DNA of 64,000 nt from positions 1,274,273 through 1,338,272 of the forward strand of contig NZ_JAKEDS010000001.1 in assembly GCF_021462415.1 (NCBI RefSeq). Reading direction: 5' to 3'. Both the position numbers and the translations under genes were made by a program. Positions 49,896 to 59,553 of this stretch are shown one piece after another; the first letter of the stretch is position 1, and every line of letters begins with the position of its first letter. Source of the DNA: Rhodohalobacter sp. 614A. GTDB lineage: Bacteria; Bacteroidota; Rhodothermia; Balneolales; Balneolaceae. The notes under the pieces are model-generated. The model did not search any database. It was not told the origin of the DNA and worked only from the letters and a program-made list of their open reading frames with translations.

Positions 49896-51104
49896 TTACG
49901 CCGCCAATATCTTCGAAACTTCTTCGGCTGCTTCTTTCAGAAGAACGGCAGAAATCACATTCAGATCGCTGTTGTCAATGATCTCTTTGGCTTCTTCGGC
50001 ATTCGTTCCCTGGAGACGAACAATGATCGGCACATTCTGAACCTTCTCGGCAATTTCCGGATCTTTTACGGCTTCAATCACACCGTTGGCAACACGGTCA
50101 CATCTCACAATTCCTCCAAAAATATTAATCAGAATGGCTTTTACATTTTTGTCTTCGAGGATGATCCGGAATCCATTTTTAACCGTTTCTACATTGGCTC
50201 CCCCACCGACATCAAGAAAATTAGCAGGTTCACCACCGGAAAGTTTGATGATGTCCATCGTAGCCATGGCAAGTCCGGCACCGTTTACCATACAGCCCAC
50301 ATTTCCATCCAGCTTGACATAGTTTAAGCCATATTTTGAAGCTTCCACTTCCACAGGATTTTCTTCTGCGATGTCACGCAGTTCCTGCAAGTCTTTGTGG
50401 CGATACATGGCATTTCCATCAAAGGTGACCTTGGCATCAAGAGCCATCACATCGCCGTCAGTGGTGAGGACCAGAGGATTGATTTCAACCATATCAGCAT
50501 CCTGATCAACATAAAATTTGTAGAGAGAAGTAATGAACTTCACGGCTTTTTTGAATGCATCGCCTTCAAACCCAAGGGCAAATGCAAGGTGGCGAGCCTG
50601 ATTCGGCGCGAGGTCCATTCCGGCTTCAACCCACTCTTTTACAATTTTTTCGGGAGTTTCTTCAGCTACCTGTTCAATTTCTACGCCGCCTTCGGTGGAT
50701 ACCATGATCACATTTTTGCTTTGTGCGCGATCCAGTAAAATTCCCAGGTAAAACTCTTTCTCAATATCCACGCCGTCAGTAACGTAAATGGTTTTTACTT
50801 CCTGTCCTTCCTCTCCGGTTTGAATGGTAACCAGTGTATCTCCCAAAAGGGATTCGGCTGCTTCGCGGACTTCTTCAATCGAGCGGCAGAGAATTACACC
50901 CTTGGCATTGTTTTTCTTGGTTCGTCCTTTACCCCGGCCGCCGGCATGGATTTGTGCTTTAACCACAAACAGGCTGGTGCCGTTGTCTTTCATCTCTTCA
51001 GCGGCTTTCACGGCTTCATCAACAGATGATGTGGCTACACCATCTGGAACGGCGATGCCATGTTCTTTAAACAACTCTTTGGCTTGATACTCATGAATCT
51101 TCAT
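49896..51104 (-). CDS. sucC: Succinate-CoA ligase (ADP-forming) beta subunit
   Basis: 402 residues. ATP-grasp domain: [60 protein letters not shown]. The C-terminal CoA-ligase domain has [30 protein letters not shown] and [20 protein letters not shown] cycle step producing ATP (or GTP) from succinyl-CoA. sucD is not adjacent. Confidence 0.97.
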
Positions 51105-51254
51105 AAAAGGATGCGTTTAGCTAACAATTTCAAGGGTTTAATTTTTCGGTTCGAAAATACCCAAATCGCGGCCTAAAAAAAAGCTCGGAGAAAAACCTGT
51201 AAGGAATTTTACAGTTTCGGCTCATACTATAAAGAACCAAAATCGAATTGTGAG

Positions 51255-51800
51255 ATGAGAAACAGGATACGAAAATCGACAGAACTGGTTTATGTTGAGT
51301 TGAGAATCGCAGGTAATGTGCCGCTTTTCACAATTACATCATTCCGGAAAAAAATTCTCGACGGGATACAGTGGTGTTGCGATAAACGCGGTCTCCGGGT
51401 TTATGAATATTCCCTGTTGCCAGACAGGTTTTTAATGATCGCTAACACCGCCTGGGGATCATTGCCTGAAGTGATTGAATCCTACAAAGACTTTTCTTCT
51501 AAAGCGGTAATGCTGATGTTGAGAAATGGTCGTTCAGGCATAAACACTTCGTGGATGTTCTCGGTTTTCCAGGAATTTGGTCCACAGAATAAACATGAAG
51601 GGATGCATATCTGGGAAGAAGAAACCCAAACTCGATCCGTTTATACACAGGATCAGATTGATGAAGCGGCACTTTCTATCTTGCATCAATCTGTGAAATT
51701 GGGATTTGTTGAGAAACCGCAGCACTATTTGAATTGCAGTGCACATCCGAACAATCCGTTGCAGGAATGGATTGTTGTGGCTACAGATCCGTGGAGTTGA
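51255..51800 (+). CDS. RAYT-derived protein lacking catalytic motifs
   Basis: 181 residues. The fold pattern follows Y1/RAYT proteins of Bacteroidota. LVYVELRIAGNVPLFT matches the first strand, GLRVYEYSLLPDRFLMIANTAWGSLPEVIESYKDFSSKAVMLML matches the stretch that normally reads YVIMPNHIHLI..SDIIRDFKKFTSK, and the tail LHQSVKLGFVEKPQHYLNCSAHP matches YIHNNPVKAGLVEKPEDYPYSSA. Both HUH histidines are gone (PDRFLM) and the catalytic tyrosine position is Leu/His. So it keeps the family outline but should not cut DNA. Its stop codon is inside an inverted-repeat element (51798-51861). Confidence 0.7.
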   Translation: MRNRIRKSTELVYVELRIAGNVPLFTITSFRKKILDGIQWCCDKRGLRVYEYSLLPDRFLMIANTAWGSLPEVIESYKDFSSKAVMLMLRNGRSGINTSWMFSVFQEFGPQNKHEGMHIWEEETQTRSVYTQDQIDEAALSILHQSVKLGFVEKPQHYLNCSAHPNNPLQEWIVVATDPWS

Positions 51801-51861
51801 CCCAACCTAAATCCCCTTCATCGTTCCGTGCTTTTGCGGAATAGGGTCGGGGGTTGGGTCA
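51798..51861. repeat. Inverted-repeat element whose arms hold both stop codons
   Basis: TGACCCAACC (51798-51807) and GGTTGGGTCA (51852-51861) are perfect 10-bp arms around a 44-nt centre that has further short complementarity (ATCCCC/GGGG, TTCCG/CGGAA). The TGA at the left end is the stop of the RAYT-like gene, and the TCA at the right end is the stop of the minus-strand malic enzyme. REP-like. It may also fold at the ends of both convergent transcripts, but no T-run is present. Confidence 0.7.
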
Positions 51862-53277
51862 CGGACTCGGCCGTCTTGCTACTCCAGTTTCAAACGCGGC
51901 TTCTTTCACCGCTTTAGATACTTTTCGGACAACCTGTTTGCTGAAAACGCTGGGTACAATGTACTCTTCACTTAGATCATTGTCGTCGATATGGCCGGCA
52001 ATGGCGTGAGCCGCCGCCAGTTTCATTTCTTCGTTAATGTCTGATGCACGGGCATCCAGCGCTCCGCGAAAAATTCCGGGGAAAGCAAGTACGTTATTGA
52101 TTTGGTTGGGATAGTCGCTTCGGCCTGTTGCAATAATACGGGCGATATTTTGAATTTTTTCAGGGCGAATTTCAGGAACCGGGTTTGCCAGGGCAAAAAC
52201 AATTGGATCTTTCGCCATTTTCTCAACGGCTTCGACGGGAATAATATCCGGACCGCTGACACCGATTAAAAGATCAGCTCCGTCGGTCGCATCAAGAATG
52301 TTGCCACCCAAATTATTTGGATTGGTATTTTCCGCGATCCATTTTTTACTCTCGTTTAAATTTTTAATTCGGTCTCGGTTAATAATCCCGGAACTGTCGC
52401 AGCAAAGAATATCTTTTACACCTTCATTTAACAATATTTGTGCAATTGCCACGCCAGCCGCTCCGGCGCCGACAATCACAATCCGGATATCCTGAAGCTT
52501 TTTCCCGACAACTTTCAAAGCGTTGATGGTGGCTGCATGTGTGACGATAGCCGTGCCGTGTTGATCGTCATGAAAAACGGGAATGTCCAGTTTTTCTTTA
52601 AGGCGCTGTTCAATTTCAAAACATCTCGGCGCACTGATATCTTCCAGGTTAATTCCCCCAAATCCCGGTGAAATCAGCTCAACGGTTCGTACAATTTCAT
52701 CGACATCCTGGGTGTTGAGACAGATTGGATACCCGTCCACATCAGCAAATTCCTTGAACAACATGGCCTTTCCTTCCATGACCGGCATGGCGGCTTCAGG
52801 GCCAATATTGCCCAGCCCAAGTACGGCAGATCCATCACTGACTACCGCCACAGAATTTTGTTTGATAGTAAGTGTGTGAGCTTTTTCGGGATCTTCAGCA
52901 ATCGCTTCGCACACTCGTCCCACGCCAGGAGTATAAGCCATCGACAAAGCGTCCCGCGTATCCACCGGTACTTTGTTTTTGATACTGATTTTTCCTCCCA
53001 GGTGAAGCAGAAAAACCCGGTCGGAAACATTCCGTACTTTAATTCCCTCAATCTTTTTAACCGCTTTCACGATTGCTTTCGAGTGATCTTCATCACGGGC
53101 ACTGACGGTGATGTCACGGATTTTATATTTACCTTCCACCCGTACAACATCAACGGCTCCGGGATCTCCTTTTTCATCGGCAATGGCATTTAAAATTTTT
53201 GCCAGCATGCCCGGCTTGTTTTCAATATGTACGCGCATGGTAAAACTGTAACTAACACTGGTCTGAATGTCACTCAT
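51859..53277 (-). CDS. NAD(P)-dependent malic enzyme with N-terminal ACT domain
   Basis: 472 residues. Residues about 10-88 form an ACT-like domain (YSFTMRVHIENKPGMLAKILNAIADEKGD). The malic enzyme part has AYTPGVGRVCEAIAEDPEKA (catalytic Tyr), ISPGFGGINLEDISAPRCFEIE, FHDDQHGTAIVTHAATINALKV (metal-binding Asp pair), nucleotide motif IVIVGAGAAGVAIAQIL, and ALANPVPEIRP. It decarboxylates malate to pyruvate. Lacks the phosphotransacetylase domain of MaeB. The ACT domain points to amino-acid regulation, known for some bacterial malic enzymes. The C-terminus is ended by a repeat element. Confidence 0.94.
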   Translation of the reverse strand: MSDIQTSVSYSFTMRVHIENKPGMLAKILNAIADEKGDPGAVDVVRVEGKYKIRDITVSARDEDHSKAIVKAVKKIEGIKVRNVSDRVFLLHLGGKISIKNKVPVDTRDALSMAYTPGVGRVCEAIAEDPEKAHTLTIKQNSVAVVSDGSAVLGLGNIGPEAAMPVMEGKAMLFKEFADVDGYPICLNTQDVDEIVRTVELISPGFGGINLEDISAPRCFEIEQRLKEKLDIPVFHDDQHGTAIVTHAATINALKVVGKKLQDIRIVIVGAGAAGVAIAQILLNEGVKDILCCDSSGIINRDRIKNLNESKKWIAENTNPNNLGGNILDATDGADLLIGVSGPDIIPVEAVEKMAKDPIVFALANPVPEIRPEKIQNIARIIATGRSDYPNQINNVLAFPGIFRGALDARASDINEEMKLAAAHAIAGHIDDNDLSEEYIVPSVFSKQVVRKVSKAVKEAAFETGVARRPSP

Positions 53278-53379
53278 AAATCAGGGGTTTTATTTTTTCT
53301 ATGTGATGGATGAAAGGTACGTTCCCCCCACGGATGAAGTCAAAATTAACTGTTTTTTACACTTTCAGTTGAGGTAAAA

Positions 53380-54102
53380 TCAATCGGGTTTAAAATTTTC
53401 CCGGAGATTTTGCAAAACGGCGGACATGTTTGTACAAAATTGCAGCCATTTGTTCCTGTCTTCACAAAGTTTTTGATTCACTTCCAACTCAATTCCCAGG
53501 TATGAGTTTTCACAAAAATTCTTACGAAGAAAAGTTGTGAATCCGTCTGAAATGCCTTTGTAGGGTTGATTCATCCGAAGCCGAAGATCAGGTAGAATTT
53601 CATTGATCTGTGATTTCCAGATTCGGCAGACATTTTTTTCATGATTTCTTTTTGAATCGTACAACAGGCCAATCTCAAAATTTCGCTCTTTTCCATCCAG
53701 AATCGGGGTAAAAGTGTGAACACTGATATGAATTACAGGTCGGTTTTTGGAAATATTTTTATTGATTGCATCCGCTACTCTCATTCTGTGCGGATGATAA
53801 TATTTCTCAATGATTGCTTGCTTCTCCGTTCTGCTCAAAGATCGGGTGAATTCTGAAAAAAGTTTGGGATGGCCGATCGACCGATTCAGTTCAATAAAAA
53901 GCCGCGTGAATGAATAGGTGAAAAGTTCTGAGCCGGTTCTCTCAGATAGGATTTGAGCGAGTTCAAATGAACCGGGATCCCATCCGCGATGTGAATTCAG
54001 TATTTGTTCGGCCCCTTCAAAAAGAAATACGTATTCATTGGGGATCAGATTTCCCGCGTGCTCACAGCTGAAAATCAACTCAGGGGAGGAAGGGAGTTCC
54101 AT
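53380..54102 (-). CDS. N-formylglutamate amidohydrolase-like enzyme
   Basis: 240 residues. Motifs of the FGase family are visible: IFSCEHAGNLIPNEY at the N-terminus, HRGWDPGS, LFIELNRSIGHP, ISVHTFTP and LGIELEVNQKL. The family is made of zinc-dependent amidohydrolases; the best known member hydrolyses N-formylglutamate in histidine breakdown. Here it is last of four packed genes, overlapping the GCS2-type gene by 23 nt. A role in trimming or recycling an amide-linked product of the adjacent ligases is more likely than histidine catabolism, although hutH is elsewhere in this window. Confidence 0.88.
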   Translation of the reverse strand: MELPSSPELIFSCEHAGNLIPNEYVFLFEGAEQILNSHRGWDPGSFELAQILSERTGSELFTYSFTRLFIELNRSIGHPKLFSEFTRSLSRTEKQAIIEKYYHPHRMRVADAINKNISKNRPVIHISVHTFTPILDGKERNFEIGLLYDSKRNHEKNVCRIWKSQINEILPDLRLRMNQPYKGISDGFTTFLRKNFCENSYLGIELEVNQKLCEDRNKWLQFCTNMSAVLQNLRENFKPD

Positions 54103-55324
54103 GTCTCAGGCAATCAGAAAGGTTTTGGTACACATCCAACAAATCATCATGATCGAAACTTTCGGGAAGTGAATTCAGAATTCTTCTTGCAAGGGGACCA
54201 TATTTGAAGATCAAATCAAGATGACCGACGGATTTTTGAGTGAAATGATAGTCTTCTTGTAACGATGCAAAAAGATGCATCCAAAGTTCTCCGGCAGATA
54301 TTCGGCTCTCATTCAAACCGAACAGTGACAGGTATTCCGAGTTCGAAATAATTGCCTGTTCACCGTCTTTAACAATCGCCATCAGGATATCATAGAGAGA
54401 CTGTTCAGACCATTTTTTTTGATCGGCGAGTGGCGCCCATTTTTCATCCACCAATGCTTTTGTGAGATTCACAATGAGTTCAAGTATCGCAAGATCTGCC
54501 GCAGGATTTTCCTGGATATCTATCACTCGAATTTCAATCGTTTCGCGAGCCCAGCGGGACATTGCTCCGCGCGAATTGAGCCATTCATCCTGTAAAATTC
54601 CGTCCGGATCAAATGGAGCAATATCGCGGTACATCCGCTCTAAAATTTCCGTTTGATATTCTTCGTGAGTAAAAACCGGTTCAGGAACAATCGATCCGGT
54701 AACCGATGGAATTCGTTTGGAGTTCGTCCGATAAGTTTCCATTCGAAAATCCAGGAATGGTTTGATCTCGCTGTCGGCAATCGGTGAGCTGGCGGCAACA
54801 GCAGGAATTAACGGCAACAAAAGCCGGACAGCAGCGTGAAGCTTTTCAAAATCCTTATCACCATGAAACGGGAGGTTAAGATGGGTGCTTTGAAGGTTTG
54901 CCCATCCATGCCCGCGGCAGTCAAAAATGCGATTGTAGGCTTCGTAAACGGGATTAAATTCATGGGGCCAAAGTTTTACTTTAAAAGGATCCATCCATGG
55001 ATGAATGGCACCGGGCATAAGGCGGGCGTCAAAATCAGCAAGAATTCTTTCGATTTCGATAACTTCATTTTGAAAAATTTCTGCTGCGCCTTCCAGATTT
55101 TTTGCCGGGCCGTTGGTCTTGATTTCAATCAGGTGAAGAACCAGTTCATTGCTCCAGGCCATCGGGCCGCGTTCATGTTCAGTGATGATTTTTCCGGCGG
55201 CCTTTTCCAGAACTTTGTCTGAAATGGGAAGCACATTCAGGTCAGACTTGCCCACAATAATGTATTCCATTTCAATTCCATATCCCTCAAAAAGATGAAG
55301 CGGTCGCTTCTTTTGAATCTCCAT
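54080..55324 (-). CDS. GCS2-type carboxylate-amine ligase
   Basis: 414 residues. Glutamine-synthetase-like fold of the glutamate-cysteine ligase 2 family: FEGYGIEMEYIIV at the start (the G.E.E metal motif), GPMAWSNELVLHLIEIKTNGP, GHGWANLQSTHLNLPFHGDKDFEKLHAAVRLLLPLIPAVAASSPI, FLDFRMETYRTN and IEIRVIDIQENPAADLAI. The family forms amide bonds at gamma- or alpha-carboxylates. The substrate is unknown here. One base separates it from the ATP-grasp gene upstream and it overlaps the FGase gene downstream. Confidence 0.9.
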   Translation of the reverse strand: MEIQKKRPLHLFEGYGIEMEYIIVGKSDLNVLPISDKVLEKAAGKIITEHERGPMAWSNELVLHLIEIKTNGPAKNLEGAAEIFQNEVIEIERILADFDARLMPGAIHPWMDPFKVKLWPHEFNPVYEAYNRIFDCRGHGWANLQSTHLNLPFHGDKDFEKLHAAVRLLLPLIPAVAASSPIADSEIKPFLDFRMETYRTNSKRIPSVTGSIVPEPVFTHEEYQTEILERMYRDIAPFDPDGILQDEWLNSRGAMSRWARETIEIRVIDIQENPAADLAILELIVNLTKALVDEKWAPLADQKKWSEQSLYDILMAIVKDGEQAIISNSEYLSLFGLNESRISAGELWMHLFASLQEDYHFTQKSVGHLDLIFKYGPLARRILNSLPESFDHDDLLDVYQNLSDCLRHGTPFLP

Positions 55325-55325
55325 A

Positions 55326-56786
55326 TCAGTTTTTTTTCTTTTTCAGTTCAACCCGTCGCAGAAATTCATCCATAATAGCCTGGTAGAGTTTGTCTTTCAG
55401 TACGGCATCTTCACAGCCAGAATCGATACTGGGGTTGTCGTTCACTTCAATCACGTAAACTTTTCCATCGATTTCTTTCACATCTACTCCGTAAAGGCCG
55501 TTTCCAATGAGTTTCGCTGCTTTCAAGGCATTTTTCACCACGTCTTTCGGCATGTCTTCTATCGCCAGTGTATCGGCATTTCCGGAATAGGTTTTTCCAC
55601 CTTCGGTTCTTTCATAAATTTGCCAGTGTTTTCGTGCCATGTGATATTTGCAACCGTAAAGCGGTTCTCCGTTCAGAATTCCTACCCGCCAGTCGAAAGT
55701 AGTGGGGATGAACTGCTGGGCAATCAATAAATCTGATTTCTCAAAGAGCTGGTTCGATTTCTCTTTAAATTCATTTTGATCATTCACCTTCACAACTCCC
55801 TGTGAGAACGAACTGTCCGGCTGTTTCAGAATGCAGGGAAAGCCAAGTTTTTCCGGGACTATTTCAGCCGTTTCAGGACTGATGATCAAGGTTTCCGGTG
55901 CCGGAATTTGATGCTTCGTCAGGAGTTCGGCCAGGTACACTTTGTTGGTACACATCAGGATCGATTCCGGGTCGTCAATTACGACGAGTCCTTCAGCAGC
56001 GGCTTTTCTCGCCATCCGGTACGTATGATGCATTACGCTGGTCGTTTCGCGGATAAACAAGGCATCGAATTCATTGATTCGTGAATAATCATCTTTTGTG
56101 ATCAGTTCAGTATGAAAATCAAGTGACTCGGCTGCGCGAATAAATCGTTGAAGAGCTTTCTCATCCGAAGGAGGCAATTCCTCGCCCGGATTCACAAGAA
56201 TGGCGAGATCGTACCGGGTATCTTTTTTTGGGGTGACGGAATATCGCTTCTTAAAAAAATCCTGTGCCATTTGGGTGATGAACGGCTTGTGCTCCTCCGG
56301 AACTTCATTGGCAGAGATTGCCTGGATATTCTTTAGAATCCATTCCTCATCTTTTTTAGAAAATTCTGCTCGAAGAAAAGGTGCCTGGAACTGGTTGAAT
56401 AGTTTCTGAGCCAGCCGGTCGTACCGTTTGGCAACGTTCTTCCCGAAATAGATGCTCAGGGTAAATTTGTCAGTATGAATCGGTTTCAGGCTTTTTTGAA
56501 TCAGCTGATTTAACTCATCCGACACAATTCGAATGATGGATTGTGACTTGATATCCTGAATGGCCAGCACATTCGGAAACGGTTTGTGGCCGCGCGCATT
56601 TGCCAGCAGAGACACATAATATCCCAAACTTTGATAGCGATAGCTCCGGCAAAGATTATAAACCTTCAGGCTTTTTAGATTGATAAACGCCGGATCGGTG
56701 ATATAAGATTTGGCAGAAATGATATCCACGCCGGGAATATCAAGCGGCCAGTTTTTGGGATTATTTACAACAATTAGGTGATTCAT
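55326..56786 (-). CDS. RimK-like ATP-grasp ligase with RLAN N-terminal domain
   Basis: 486 residues. An N-terminal ~190-residue region (LIVVNNPKNWPLDIPGV..LCRSYRYQSLGYYVSLLANARGHKPFPNV) matches the RLAN domain found before RimK-type ATP-grasps. The ATP-grasp follows: RETTSVMHHTYRMARKAAAEGLVVIDDPESILMCTNKVYLAELL, PCILKQPDSSFSQGVVKV, LLIAQQFIPTTFDWRVGILNG, LYGVDVKEIDGKVYVIEVNDNPSIDSG (metal ligands E/N in EVNDNPS). RimK-type enzymes add amino acids, often glutamate, to a carboxylate in an ATP-dependent way. Second gene of the four-gene set. Confidence 0.92.
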   Translation of the reverse strand: MNHLIVVNNPKNWPLDIPGVDIISAKSYITDPAFINLKSLKVYNLCRSYRYQSLGYYVSLLANARGHKPFPNVLAIQDIKSQSIIRIVSDELNQLIQKSLKPIHTDKFTLSIYFGKNVAKRYDRLAQKLFNQFQAPFLRAEFSKKDEEWILKNIQAISANEVPEEHKPFITQMAQDFFKKRYSVTPKKDTRYDLAILVNPGEELPPSDEKALQRFIRAAESLDFHTELITKDDYSRINEFDALFIRETTSVMHHTYRMARKAAAEGLVVIDDPESILMCTNKVYLAELLTKHQIPAPETLIISPETAEIVPEKLGFPCILKQPDSSFSQGVVKVNDQNEFKEKSNQLFEKSDLLIAQQFIPTTFDWRVGILNGEPLYGCKYHMARKHWQIYERTEGGKTYSGNADTLAIEDMPKDVVKNALKAAKLIGNGLYGVDVKEIDGKVYVIEVNDNPSIDSGCEDAVLKDKLYQAIMDEFLRRVELKKKKN

Positions 56787-56798
56787 GTTAAAGAAGAC

Positions 56799-57488
56799 TT
56801 ATGGAGTGATGATAATAAGATTTGCATCGTAGGTTACGATCCCGAGCAAGATTGCATTCATGACCCGATCGATATTCATTTTATAGAGCTGTCCATCTTC
56901 AAACGGGTTTATAATGATGGGGTCGGCGATGAACACATCACGGGTTTCTGAATCGTATCCATGCAGAAGCACGAAGTGGCCGGCCGGTTCGCCGCGCAGA
57001 TCATCATAATCCATATTGGGCCCGAATTCCCGCGCACTTTGGTACAGATAGGTCGCGCTCAATCCAACAATAATCGGCTGTTCTTTCTTCAGATATTTAG
57101 TGATTACTGATGAACGCAGATCTTCGAATTTTAGATGTCCGCCATGCTGTAAAAAAAGAGTGTAAGCATTTACGGCGGCTTGAAGTTTCTTGTCTTTTTT
57201 GAACTCCAGTTGTTTTTGAATACGGTCAATCATGAAATCAGAAGTTTCACCAAACCACGTGGGATCAAATACTTGCAGATTGTAGGAGTAAATCGTGGCG
57301 TTGTATCCTCTTTTCAGTGCATGGACAGCTAACAGTGCGCCAAGCGTACCACCACCTTCGAGATGATGTACTTCATCAATGACTCTGTTTAGATCAATTG
57401 AGTCACTATAAAACTGGTAAACGGCATGAAGACAAGTGGGTCCGCATGTAGTTTCATCCGGCTGCTTTTTTATTGGGATTTCTAACAT
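56799..57488 (-). CDS. C39-like cysteine peptidase
   Basis: 229 residues. Papain-like fold of the C39 type: catalytic Cys in QPDETTCGPTCLHAVYQFY (residue about 15), His in PAGHFVLLHGYD and Asp in VFIADPII. There is no transporter or membrane domain, unlike bacteriocin-exporter C39 domains. First of the four-gene set, 12 nt before the ATP-grasp gene. Such peptidases in ligase operons may mature a precursor peptide or cleave, or even form, the amide product. No short precursor-peptide ORF was found next to it. Confidence 0.88.
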   Translation of the reverse strand: MLEIPIKKQPDETTCGPTCLHAVYQFYSDSIDLNRVIDEVHHLEGGGTLGALLAVHALKRGYNATIYSYNLQVFDPTWFGETSDFMIDRIQKQLEFKKDKKLQAAVNAYTLFLQHGGHLKFEDLRSSVITKYLKKEQPIIVGLSATYLYQSAREFGPNMDYDDLRGEPAGHFVLLHGYDSETRDVFIADPIIINPFEDGQLYKMNIDRVMNAILLGIVTYDANLIIITP

Positions 57489-57617
57489 GATTGTTTAAAA
57501 ATCTCTCTGATACTTTTAATGAATGAAGACTTGGGAGAAAAGAAAATTACGAGTAAAAAATGAGATTTCATCTACTCTCAAATATTATTTCCCGGAAGGT
57601 GTGTCAATAGATTTTGT

Positions 57618-57655
57618 GCGTCACTGCGAATGAAATGACGAGAATGCACCAATCA
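57618..57655. repeat. Partial copy of the GTCATTGCGA-type repeat
   Basis: GTCACTGCGAATGAAATGACG followed by AGAATGCACCAATC resembles one end of the compound-palindrome repeat seen at 35614-35820. It lies in the gap between the MFS gene and the C39 peptidase gene. Confidence 0.4.
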
Positions 57656-57672
57656 CATAAGATGTATAAAAA

Positions 57673-58848
57673 TCAAACGTATTGATTCTTTCCGGCTTCC
57701 CACCCGGATTTGAGTTTTAAAAGCGCAACAAGGAAGAGAAATGCCAGAGGAATGATCCAGTTTTGGGTCCAATCAAAAAGAGCCCCAAAAAAGACCGGCC
57801 CCACGGCGGCAATGGTATATCCAATGGATTGCGACATCCCGGAAAGTTCGTTAGCAGAATCCGAATCCCGGCTTCGAAGTAAAATAAAAAGCAAAGCCAG
57901 TCCGAAGCTTCCTCCAAGGCAAAAACCAATAATGCTTATAAAAATTACGACGCCCCAAAAGGGCAGAGGAACAATAAGGCCCAGAAGACTGATCATTTCA
58001 AAAAAAACAATCCACAAAACGGATTTCTGCTGGCTCGGTTTTTCAGAAACGAGGTAAGGCGTAACGAAAGTACCAATCACGCCAACGCCATGCATGGTTG
58101 CCAAAAGCCATCCTGCATGAATATTGTCTATTCCACGCTCAATCAATATTTCGGGCAGCCAGGCAGTGAGGGTATAAAAGGTAAGTGATTGAAGCCCTAC
58201 AAAGATAGCTACATGCCATGCCAGTTTGGATGTGCCTAAATCCCGAATGGAGGTTCGGAATGATTTTTTCATAATGGCAGACATGTTTGACTTTAGCTGG
58301 GGCAGCCAGACAAGTAAAGTCAAAGCAGAGAAAAATCCCCAGCTACCAAGAGTCCAGCGCCATCCAAGCCCTTTACCCTGCGAGAGTGGTACACTTATGC
58401 CGGTTGCAACAGTGGCTGAAACTCCCAACATGGAGGAGTAAATGCCTGTCATTAATCCGGCTCTTTTGGGAAATTTCTTTTTTACAATTCCCGGTAAAAG
58501 TACATTCCCCAATGCTATACCAACTCCCAGTAATAAAGTGCCTCCAAAAAGTGCGAGGTTAGCCGGAATGGCTCTCATCAAAGTACCTGCTGTGAGAATA
58601 AAAAGAGCAAAAGCCATGGTTCCCTCCGTTCCAATTTTGCGGGTAAAAAGAGGAGTGAGTATCGAAAAGATTCCAAATGCCAGGACGGGCAAGGTAGTGA
58701 GCAGGCCAAGCAGGCTGTTTGAAAGTCCCGTGCTTTCCCGAATTTCAGCAATCAAAGGCCCAACAGCCGTAATGGATGGCCTGAGGTTCAGGGATATCAG
58801 GATGATGACAAATATGAGGAAGTATTTCTGTTTTTGCTCCGGCGACAT
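57673..58848 (-). CDS. MFS transporter (CynX/NimT-like)
   Basis: 391 residues, 12 predicted membrane segments. The N-terminal pattern SLNLRPSITAVGPLIAEIRESTGLSNSLLGLLTTLPVLAFGIFS is typical of the CynX/NimT family, members of which move small anions such as cyanate, nitroimidazoles or related compounds. Substrate unknown. It is on the same strand and 184 nt upstream of the four-gene ligase set, so it may or may not belong with it. Confidence 0.9.
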   Translation of the reverse strand: MSPEQKQKYFLIFVIILISLNLRPSITAVGPLIAEIRESTGLSNSLLGLLTTLPVLAFGIFSILTPLFTRKIGTEGTMAFALFILTAGTLMRAIPANLALFGGTLLLGVGIALGNVLLPGIVKKKFPKRAGLMTGIYSSMLGVSATVATGISVPLSQGKGLGWRWTLGSWGFFSALTLLVWLPQLKSNMSAIMKKSFRTSIRDLGTSKLAWHVAIFVGLQSLTFYTLTAWLPEILIERGIDNIHAGWLLATMHGVGVIGTFVTPYLVSEKPSQQKSVLWIVFFEMISLLGLIVPLPFWGVVIFISIIGFCLGGSFGLALLFILLRSRDSDSANELSGMSQSIGYTIAAVGPVFFGALFDWTQNWIIPLAFLFLVALLKLKSGWEAGKNQYV

Positions 58849-59004
58849 GACTCTTTTTTTAATAAGCCCTCAAGGTACGAATATTCAGACTGTAAGTAAT
58901 AAGAATCATCCTGAATTCAGATCGTTAAGATCAATTGAACCTTTAATTGTTTTACAATCCATCAATCCCTAATTTTAGTCACAAAAATCACCTCGAGGTA
59001 ATCT

Positions 59005-59553
59005 TTGGAAGAAGCCAAAATCATGTCGGAAGAGGATGTGAATCGCACCTACCTGCGATTTGCACACCAGTTCTTGGAGCCCCATGACGATCCTTCCGAG
59101 CCAGCCATTATTGGAATGCAGACCAGAGGTGTGTTTATCGGCCGAAGAATTGTAAATATTATCGAAGATATATCTGGTATCAAGCCTGATTTTGGAGTTT
59201 TGGATGTGACGTTTTACAGGGATGATTTTCGCTCGAAACTAAAAATACCGGAAGTAAAAATAACCGAAATACCGTTTGATCTTTATAACAGAGATGTGAT
59301 TTTGGTAGATGATGTTCTTTATACCGGCCGAACCGTTCGTTCGGCTATGGACGCCCTGATGGATTACGGCCGCCCAAGAAGTATTAAATTTTGTTGTATG
59401 ATTGACAGGGGACACCGGGAACTGCCAATCCGTTCGGATTATGTAGGTATGACCGTTCCAACCCATGCCGATGAGGAGGTTCAGGTAAAAGTAAAAGAAC
59501 TGGACGGAGAAGATGCCGTTTATATTGTGAAGGGAAGGAGGACGGATGCCTGA
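59005..59553 (+). CDS. pyrR: PyrR family regulator/uracil phosphoribosyltransferase
   Basis: 182 residues from TTG 59005; ATG 59023 would cut off the conserved EEAKIMSEEDVNRTYLRFAHQ start, so TTG is preferred. PRPP motif VILVDDVLYTGRTVRSAMDAL near residue 100, and RGHRELPIRSDYVG near the C-terminus. In Gram-positives PyrR binds pyr mRNA and also makes UMP. I saw no clear PyrR attenuator in the short leader here. It overlaps pyrB by 8 nt. Confidence 0.94.
   Translation: MEEAKIMSEEDVNRTYLRFAHQFLEPHDDPSEPAIIGMQTRGVFIGRRIVNIIEDISGIKPDFGVLDVTFYRDDFRSKLKIPEVKITEIPFDLYNRDVILVDDVLYTGRTVRSAMDALMDYGRPRSIKFCCMIDRGHRELPIRSDYVGMTVPTHADEEVQVKVKELDGEDAVYIVKGRRTDA

Follow-up and report, generated by a model that had tools for sequence, protein, structure and literature searches.

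The 64,000-nucleotide stretch of the Rhodohalobacter sp. 614A genome analysed here (the window) carries a four-gene set on its minus strand that encodes a C39-like peptidase, an RLAN/ATP-grasp ligase, a GCS2-type ligase and an FGase-like hydrolase. We found that the two ligases are the core of this set and the two hydrolases its dispensable accessories, and that RLAN loci are of two kinds, one with the GCS2-type ligase and the other with a RimI-like acetyltransferase (GNAT). The conserved set, its fixed order, the pairing of the ligases, the exchange between GCS2 and acetyltransferase, the folds and the conserved sites are directly supported by the comparisons below. Based on sequences and structure models, we tentatively read the operon as a two-ligase pathway in which a short, amine-capped, peptide-like metabolite may be made and recycled.

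Organisation of the operon

The set consists of four minus-strand open reading frames (ORFs), whose coordinates leave 12 nt and then 1 nt between the first three and let the last two overlap by 23 nt:

56799-57488, minus strand: stand-alone C39-like (papain fold) cysteine peptidase, 229 aa (PF13529), the first gene of the set
55326-56786, minus strand: ligase with an RLAN domain and a RimK/LysX-like ATP-grasp, 486 aa (PF14401), the constant member of the loci
54080-55324, minus strand: GCS2-type carboxylate-amine ligase, 414 aa (PF04107), the steady partner of unfused RLAN
53380-54102, minus strand: FGase-like (N-formylglutamate-amidohydrolase-like) hydrolase, 240 aa (PF05013), overlapping the GCS2 gene by 23 nt

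The ORF coordinates and Pfam matches agree with this arrangement as given in a first-pass annotation of the window, and its composition of two ligases, a peptidase and a hydrolase was likewise upheld, all four proteins lying above Pfam family cut-offs: PF13529 (Peptidase_C39_2) at 50 bits against 24 for the peptidase, which also matched PF03412 (24.4 bits), PF14401 at 172.8 against 25, followed by ATP-grasp/RimK domains, PF04107 at 64.2 against 21 and PF05013 at 72.2 against 28.9. None of the four reached any family cut-off in a scan of NCBIfam. Promoter-like and terminator-like elements in the operon region were about as numerous as in shuffled sequences.

Two ligases form the core of a conserved gene set

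We assessed conservation in 206 fetched loci, comprising 57 RLAN stretches from searches of the window's bacterial family and phylum, 80 named loci (the top 80 of no fewer than 583 sequences matching the window protein, with a bias towards the GCS2 form) and 69 gammaproteobacterial loci, and in three counts of genomes covering the family (92), the phylum (394) and the class of a Wenzhouxiangella genome (321), which we take to be Gammaproteobacteria. RLAN and GCS2 occurred together in 121 of the 206 loci, with order and strand kept in 121 of 121 for every member present. Profiles grown from the window proteins were used to search 58 sequences, window included, and in the 57 RLAN stretches the order C39, RLAN, GCS2, FGase on one strand recurred across the phylum. 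Loci carrying both RLAN and GCS2 bore titles that included Balneolaceae, Cytophagales, Pontibacter, Parachlamydiaceae, Tectomicrobia, Desulfobulbaceae, Gammaproteobacteria, Planctomycetota, Spirochaetes, Verrucomicrobia, Nitrospirota, Ignavibacteriae and Omnitrophota; most of those in the named set came from metagenome-assembled genomes (MAGs), and individual taxon names may reflect binning errors.

The pairing of the ligases was also apparent at the genome level. Across the phylum, RLAN was found in 43 of 394 genomes and the GCS2 family (family match with E up to 1e-40) in 29, all of which carry RLAN, against 0 of the 351 RLAN-less genomes. The 14 RLAN genomes lacking GCS2 comprised 13 of the acetyltransferase kind and one with a weak match below the cut-off (G418). 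Within the bacterial family, RLAN occurred in 33 of 92 genomes and GCS2 in 24, namely all 22 with unfused RLAN, none of the 11 with fused RLAN, and two others, one having a partial RLAN on the same contig (G050) and one whose contig ends inside GCS2 (G054). C39 was found in 20 of the 22 unfused-RLAN genomes (G038, fragments only) and was absent from the rest of the 92, and FGase was found in 21 of the 24 GCS2-bearing genomes, plus alone in five genomes of another genus. Among the 60 named loci with full flanks, GCS2 stood beside RLAN in 58, C39 in 52 and FGase in 39, and FGase was restricted to GCS2-bearing loci in both the gammaproteobacterial (12/12) and the family/phylum (24/24) full-flank sets.

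The two ligases are therefore the core of the set and C39 and FGase dispensable accessories, which speaks for a pathway of synthesis followed by processing or turnover. The pathway that the first-pass annotation had drawn from all four genes stands in so far as the set is real; it is refined here to a ligase core with dispensable hydrolases and a second, acetyltransferase form.

Some loci are irregular. In L079 (5870-9388, genome G244), RLAN and GCS2 are each split into overlapping frames, with GCS2 as two pieces, through either sequencing error or decay. L185 is a Legionella adelaidensis record of 9 kb ('plasmid 27') and perhaps a misassembled chromosomal piece; on it, RLAN, GCS2 and FGase lie beside dapF, fur and other chromosomal-looking genes.

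An acetyltransferase takes the place of GCS2 in a second kind of locus

The GNAT of the second kind of locus is mostly fused to a DUF3335 papain-like peptidase or to RLAN itself. It was detected with a model built from fused relatives and L102, and was counted as near when at most 3.5 kb from RLAN; locus labelling excluded six loci with a short RLAN (L274, L294, L298, L056, L079 and L102), and L103 had no RLAN by profile. RLAN was carried by 70 of the 321 genomes in the class of the Wenzhouxiangella genome, from which 69 loci were fetched, the remaining genome (G441) being represented by L135 of the named set. Among the 62 gammaproteobacterial loci with full flanks, 46 had a GNAT (42 fused to the DUF3335 peptidase), 13 had GCS2, three had neither and none had both, and the 45 full-flank family/phylum loci divided into 13 with GNAT and 32 with GCS2, none having both or neither.

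In a quick tree of 88 RLAN ligases (identity-thinned from 204 rows, without L187, L297 and 17 rows labelled neither or both, and with SH-aLRT, an approximate likelihood ratio test, as its sole support measure), the GCS2 branch received an SH-aLRT of 100, and the kind of locus changed three times overall. The GNAT-RLAN fusions of the window's family, together with one relative, formed a clade (SH-aLRT 100) nested within the GCS2 branch, and the 11 fusion genomes of that family had no GCS2, C39 or FGase of the operon's families; at least one lineage has replaced GCS2, C39 and FGase with an acetyltransferase. Further GNAT-RLAN fusions (L099) grouped with the acetyltransferase kind, where their long branch has an uncertain position. 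A second change from GCS2 to GNAT, in L182, was considered and set aside as doubtful, since its GNAT is 2.3 kb upstream and separated by two further genes.

Four GNAT proteins were scanned, and RimI was the top match for three of the GNAT parts (56.6, 68.5 and 68.2 bits) and the best GNAT-type match in the fourth (47.4 bits), against a cut-off of 86.4. The peptidases of the two kinds of locus are also homologous, the operon's C39 aligning with the DUF3335 peptidases of GNAT-type loci at a hhalign E of 2.8e-10 with a Cys motif common to both. PF11814 (DUF3335) matched one of 25 C39 relatives (E 0.00017), and the window's C39 protein had no match to it at E 0.001. According to a passage in PMC10318531, which cites Iyer et al. 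2009, DUF3335 peptidases are often fused to GNATs.

Folds and conserved sites of the four enzymes

Residue conservation was assessed in full-looking ORFs selected among the 80 named loci, counting the window; the catalytic role of the aligned residues of the four enzymes is our assumption from their families. The structure model of the GCS2 protein (mean pLDDT, a per-residue confidence score, 93.0) matched 1tt4 with Z 37.8 (root-mean-square deviation (rmsd) 2.6, 347 aligned), YbdK (1r8g) with Z 37.4 and plant glutamate-cysteine ligase (2gwc) with Z 33.4, and the depupylase Dop and the Pup ligase PafA with Z 21.1 and 20.0. Its sequence gave no match in a search of the PDB and scored 40.7 bits on TIGR02050 (YbdK family carboxylate-amine ligase), for which the cut-off is 176.4. 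Ten chosen residues were invariant in 32 of 32 aligned sequences.

In the RLAN protein (AlphaFold2 model, mean pLDDT 84.1), the RLAN domain occupies residues 25-171, and about 180 residues precede the ATP-grasp part. The nearest folds of the ATP-grasp half (residues about 190-485) were LysX, ArgX and RimK, with Z 25-27 at about 20% identity (LysX 3vpd against residues 193-481: Z 26.9, rmsd 2.2, 267 aligned), and glutathione synthetase (1gsa) matched the model with Z 21.4. When the whole protein was compared, matches were taken up by the ATP-grasp half, and a PDB sequence search gave matches only in the part behind the RLAN domain. Seven ATP-grasp residues were invariant in 39 of 39 aligned sequences. 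The protein scored 77.6 bits on TIGR00768 (RimK family alpha-L-glutamate ligase; cut-off 143.4) and 80.6 on TIGR02144 (LysX; cut-off 275.6), and neither it nor three GNAT-RLAN fusions matched TIGR03103 (N-acetylglutaminylglutamine synthetase) at E 0.001. A lone RLAN ligase occurs in a Pseudomonas aeruginosa plasmid record (L184, 6902-8491) near pagP, with one gene between, and presumably corresponds to the PAO1 gene PA1345. In a table of Cpx-type sites in PMC12802237, PA1345 is entered as a hypothetical ATP-binding protein.

For the FGase-like protein, PF05013 was matched by all 19 aligned members, the window's own among them, twelve residues were invariant in all 19, and a profile from ten relatives matched PDB 2odf with E 1.1e-34. 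This protein had no match to any NCBIfam family at E 0.001, including HutG, the N-formylglutamate deformylase of histidine degradation, the hut genes themselves not having been searched for. The lone, close FGase relatives of the five genomes noted above (L189-L193) adjoin two genes that we read from sequence as a putative hydroxyacid dehydrogenase and a conserved protein resembling a membrane transporter; these neighbours gave no hint of substrate.

Residues Q9, C15, H171 and D189 of the C39-like protein, which we take from family knowledge to be its catalytic Gln-Cys-His-Asp site, were invariant in 25 of 25 aligned sequences. The 229-aa peptidase stands alone, without the transporter domains of a bacteriocin-processing C39 transporter. 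In L057 (7280-7792, genome G038), C39 is a 170-aa remnant without its Cys and His regions, beside full-length RLAN, GCS2 and FGase.

A candidate two-ligase pathway

GCS2-type ligases and GNATs acylate amines, and RimK/LysX-type enzymes join an amine to a carboxylate. Because the first two enzyme types share this chemistry, we infer that GCS2 and GNAT are two options for capping a single amine and that RLAN couples an amino acid to a carboxylate; the simplest joint reading would be that GCS2 or GNAT caps the amine and RLAN extends the carboxylate of the same molecule, as happens when glutathione or an N-acetyl-dipeptide is made. In a passage of PMC4431377 on other ATP-grasp families, linked ligases are described as often performing successive ligations, with a GNAT possibly capping the product, and Iyer et al. 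2009 is cited there for operons linking distinct ligases.

In the proposed pathway, the GCS2-type enzyme would use ATP to activate the carboxylate of a side chain, with the gamma carboxylate of glutamate as the likeliest candidate, and couple it to an acceptor amine to give a gamma-glutamyl cap. The RLAN/ATP-grasp enzyme would form an acyl phosphate at a carboxylate in the same molecule and add an amino acid there, in the manner of RimK and LysX. The C39-like peptidase and the FGase-like amidohydrolase may cleave bonds of the product, in turnover or final processing; because FGase accompanies the GCS2 form, it would probably act on the glutamyl cap, removing or trimming it. In the GNAT form, the RimI-like acetyltransferase would install an acyl cap in place of the glutamyl one. 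The substrates, the order of ligation, the product and the sites of hydrolase cleavage are what we infer, as are the glutamyl nature of the cap, the small size of the product and the role of the hydrolases. Extending the proposal beyond this operon is possible but more doubtful: the loci might then encode a widespread family of isopeptide metabolites, in which one RLAN ligase scaffold receives either a gamma-glutamyl cap, trimmed or removed by an FGase, or an acetyl cap in the same role, one clade having swapped between them. If so, two chemically different caps would serve one role in different bacteria.

Several observations weigh against the two-ligase pathway with exchangeable caps. The GNAT gene lies on the strand opposite to RLAN in 8 of the 69 gammaproteobacterial loci, and is therefore linked there by neighbourhood and not by a single transcript. 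One named locus (L107) is labelled with both GNAT and GCS2, its GNAT-like ORF lying some 2 kb upstream of RLAN, with C39 and a further ORF in between; 16 of 204 RLAN loci have neither partner, many of them from cut contigs; and a Lysobacteraceae MAG (L152, 330-3632) has C39, RLAN and FGase with no GCS2 between. FGase relatives occur alone in five genomes without RLAN or GCS2. The mutual exclusion of GNAT and GCS2 reflects few evolutionary events, and because only three changes of kind appear on the tree, the locus counts are not independent. The GCS2 protein falls far below the YbdK-family cut-off (40.7 against 176.4 bits), such that glutamate specificity is an assumption. Moreover, the GNATs match RimI and the ATP-grasps RimK/LysX, all below cut-offs, and since RimI and RimK modify protein ends, a protein target fits these matches equally.

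Alternative explanations

A protein target remains the main rival, although we consider it unlikely. The RLAN/ATP-grasp ligase would here extend the C-terminus of a host protein encoded elsewhere, GCS2 or the RimI-like GNAT would modify an amine of that protein and the peptidase would remove the tail. RimI and RimK act on ribosomal proteins, RimK modifying the C-terminus of S6, and it is consistent with such a role that RimI was the best GNAT-type match in all four GNAT proteins scanned, that the window's ATP-grasp matched LysX (80.6 bits) and the RimK family (77.6 bits), and that the peptidase comes from a papain-like family; however, the RimI, RimK and LysX scores are all below cut-offs. The GCS2 fold also resembles Dop (Z 21.1) and PafA (Z 20.0), but it is much closer to YbdK (Z 37.4) and to plant glutamate-cysteine ligase (Z 33.4) than to PafA, and no target gene is linked to the loci.

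It is improbable that the product is a glutathione-like low-molecular-weight thiol for redox buffering, in which gamma-Glu-Cys or a similar pair would be formed by GCS2 and the last residue added by the ATP-grasp. Both folds are used in making glutathione, with Z 33.4 to plant glutamate-cysteine ligase and Z 21.4 to glutathione synthetase 1gsa, yet the bacillithiol-type BshC family is present in 86 of the 92 family genomes, among them the window's own, such that a main thiol probably already exists and a role as main redox thiol is less likely. The acetyltransferase form, furthermore, lacks the gamma-glutamyl step.

An equally improbable alternative is the utilisation of amines or amino acids, in which a gamma-glutamyl or acetyl tag would be placed on an amine before processing and release by the hydrolases, in the manner of the Puu route. 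Two hydrolases belong to the set and FGase accompanies GCS2, but the hydrolases are the dispensable members, and no other gene family recurs widely beside the set: when flanking ORFs of 137 loci were clustered, the largest cluster covered 18 loci and most were lineage-bound. Three flanking clusters, named by Pfam from one member each, were histidine kinase, DnaJ and DUF155.

We regard as highly improbable a ribosomal peptide natural product of the graspetide kind, with its precursor encoded elsewhere and C39 removing the leader. C39 peptidases and ATP-grasps are found in such pathways according to a passage of PMC8939145, a paper on graspetides whose main text mentions neither GCS2 nor formylglutamate. 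GCS2 and FGase, however, are not known to belong to pathways of this kind, and the peptidase of the set is not fused to a transporter. The first-pass annotation had seen no precursor peptide gene, and this was borne out: small ORFs of 18-110 codons lying up to 1.5 kb from 137 loci were clustered, and no recurrent precursor gene emerged, no family occurring in more than 8 loci. The 18 largest clusters, on inspection, came from close relatives and were apparently frame shadows of larger genes, and a conserved precursor peptide was thus rejected as a member of the set.

Finally, an accidental cluster has next to no probability, with nothing found in its favour: a neighbourhood check refuted rare co-occurrence through 121 of 121 ordered loci and 29 of 29 genomic pairings, confirming the earlier view that the set is functional.

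Neighbouring genes

Upstream of the set by 184 nt lies a further gene:

57673-58848, minus strand: CynX/NimT-like major facilitator superfamily (MFS) transporter (TIGR00896, 359.4 bits, cut-off 406)

This neighbour was found in 8 of the 58 scanned sequences (window included), all of one genus, and is for that reason placed outside the conserved core; that it is an extra operon member, exporting or importing the product, is possible but unproven, and it may alternatively be a bystander. Downstream of the set sits a malic enzyme with an ACT domain. A plus-strand ORF (51255-51800) weakly resembles a REP-associated tyrosine transposase (29.6 bits, cut-off 80), and its relatives flank the operon in 6 of the 58 sequences, window included. 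No RNA element was found in 51000-59500 with Rfam at gathering scores. A role as a defence system was rejected, PADLOC giving no match for any of the four proteins.

Significance and comparison with known systems

Predicted amidoligase operons are a known kind, and Iyer, Abhiman, Burroughs and Aravind reportedly surveyed their neighbourhoods in 2009 (Mol BioSyst 5:1636). The fixed four-gene form, the pairing of the ligases and the exchange with a GNAT are added here, although that survey may hold part of this. The RLAN ligase is widespread (70/321 genomes of the class, 43/394 of the phylum), and our literature search, judged by titles, abstracts and passages, turned up no paper defining the product of this gene set. 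Through the ligase pairing and the exchange between GCS2 and acetyltransferase, the label 'amidoligase' becomes a two-step reaction that can be tested, the glutamyl and acetyl forms being expected to differ in mass by a predictable amount, and since named strains with the GCS2 form exist among the loci, such as Pontibacter roseus DSM 17521 (L153) and Thiobacillus thioparus DSM 505 (L147), the product is open to a search by single-gene deletion.

The operon's ATP-grasp half has its nearest folds in LysX, ArgX and RimK (Z 25-27), but differs from them in its identity of about 20%, its scores below the family cut-offs and some 180 extra N-terminal residues with the RLAN domain. N-acetylglutaminylglutamine synthetase (Ngg, TIGR03103) combines a GNAT and an ATP-grasp in one polypeptide and yields an N-acetylated dipeptide. 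The GNAT-RLAN fusions of the relatives likewise join a GNAT to an ATP-grasp, and a GNAT-DUF3335 protein (L231) matches TIGR03103 weakly (18.4 bits, cut-off 569); unlike Ngg, the window's RLAN protein and three GNAT-RLAN fusions have no such match at E 0.001. Glutathione synthesis, too, pairs a GCS-fold ligase with an ATP-grasp ligase, and both folds are matched in the operon, whereas the operon's enzymes belong to other subfamilies, with an extra RLAN domain and with C39 and FGase beside them, in a bacterial family that has BshC.

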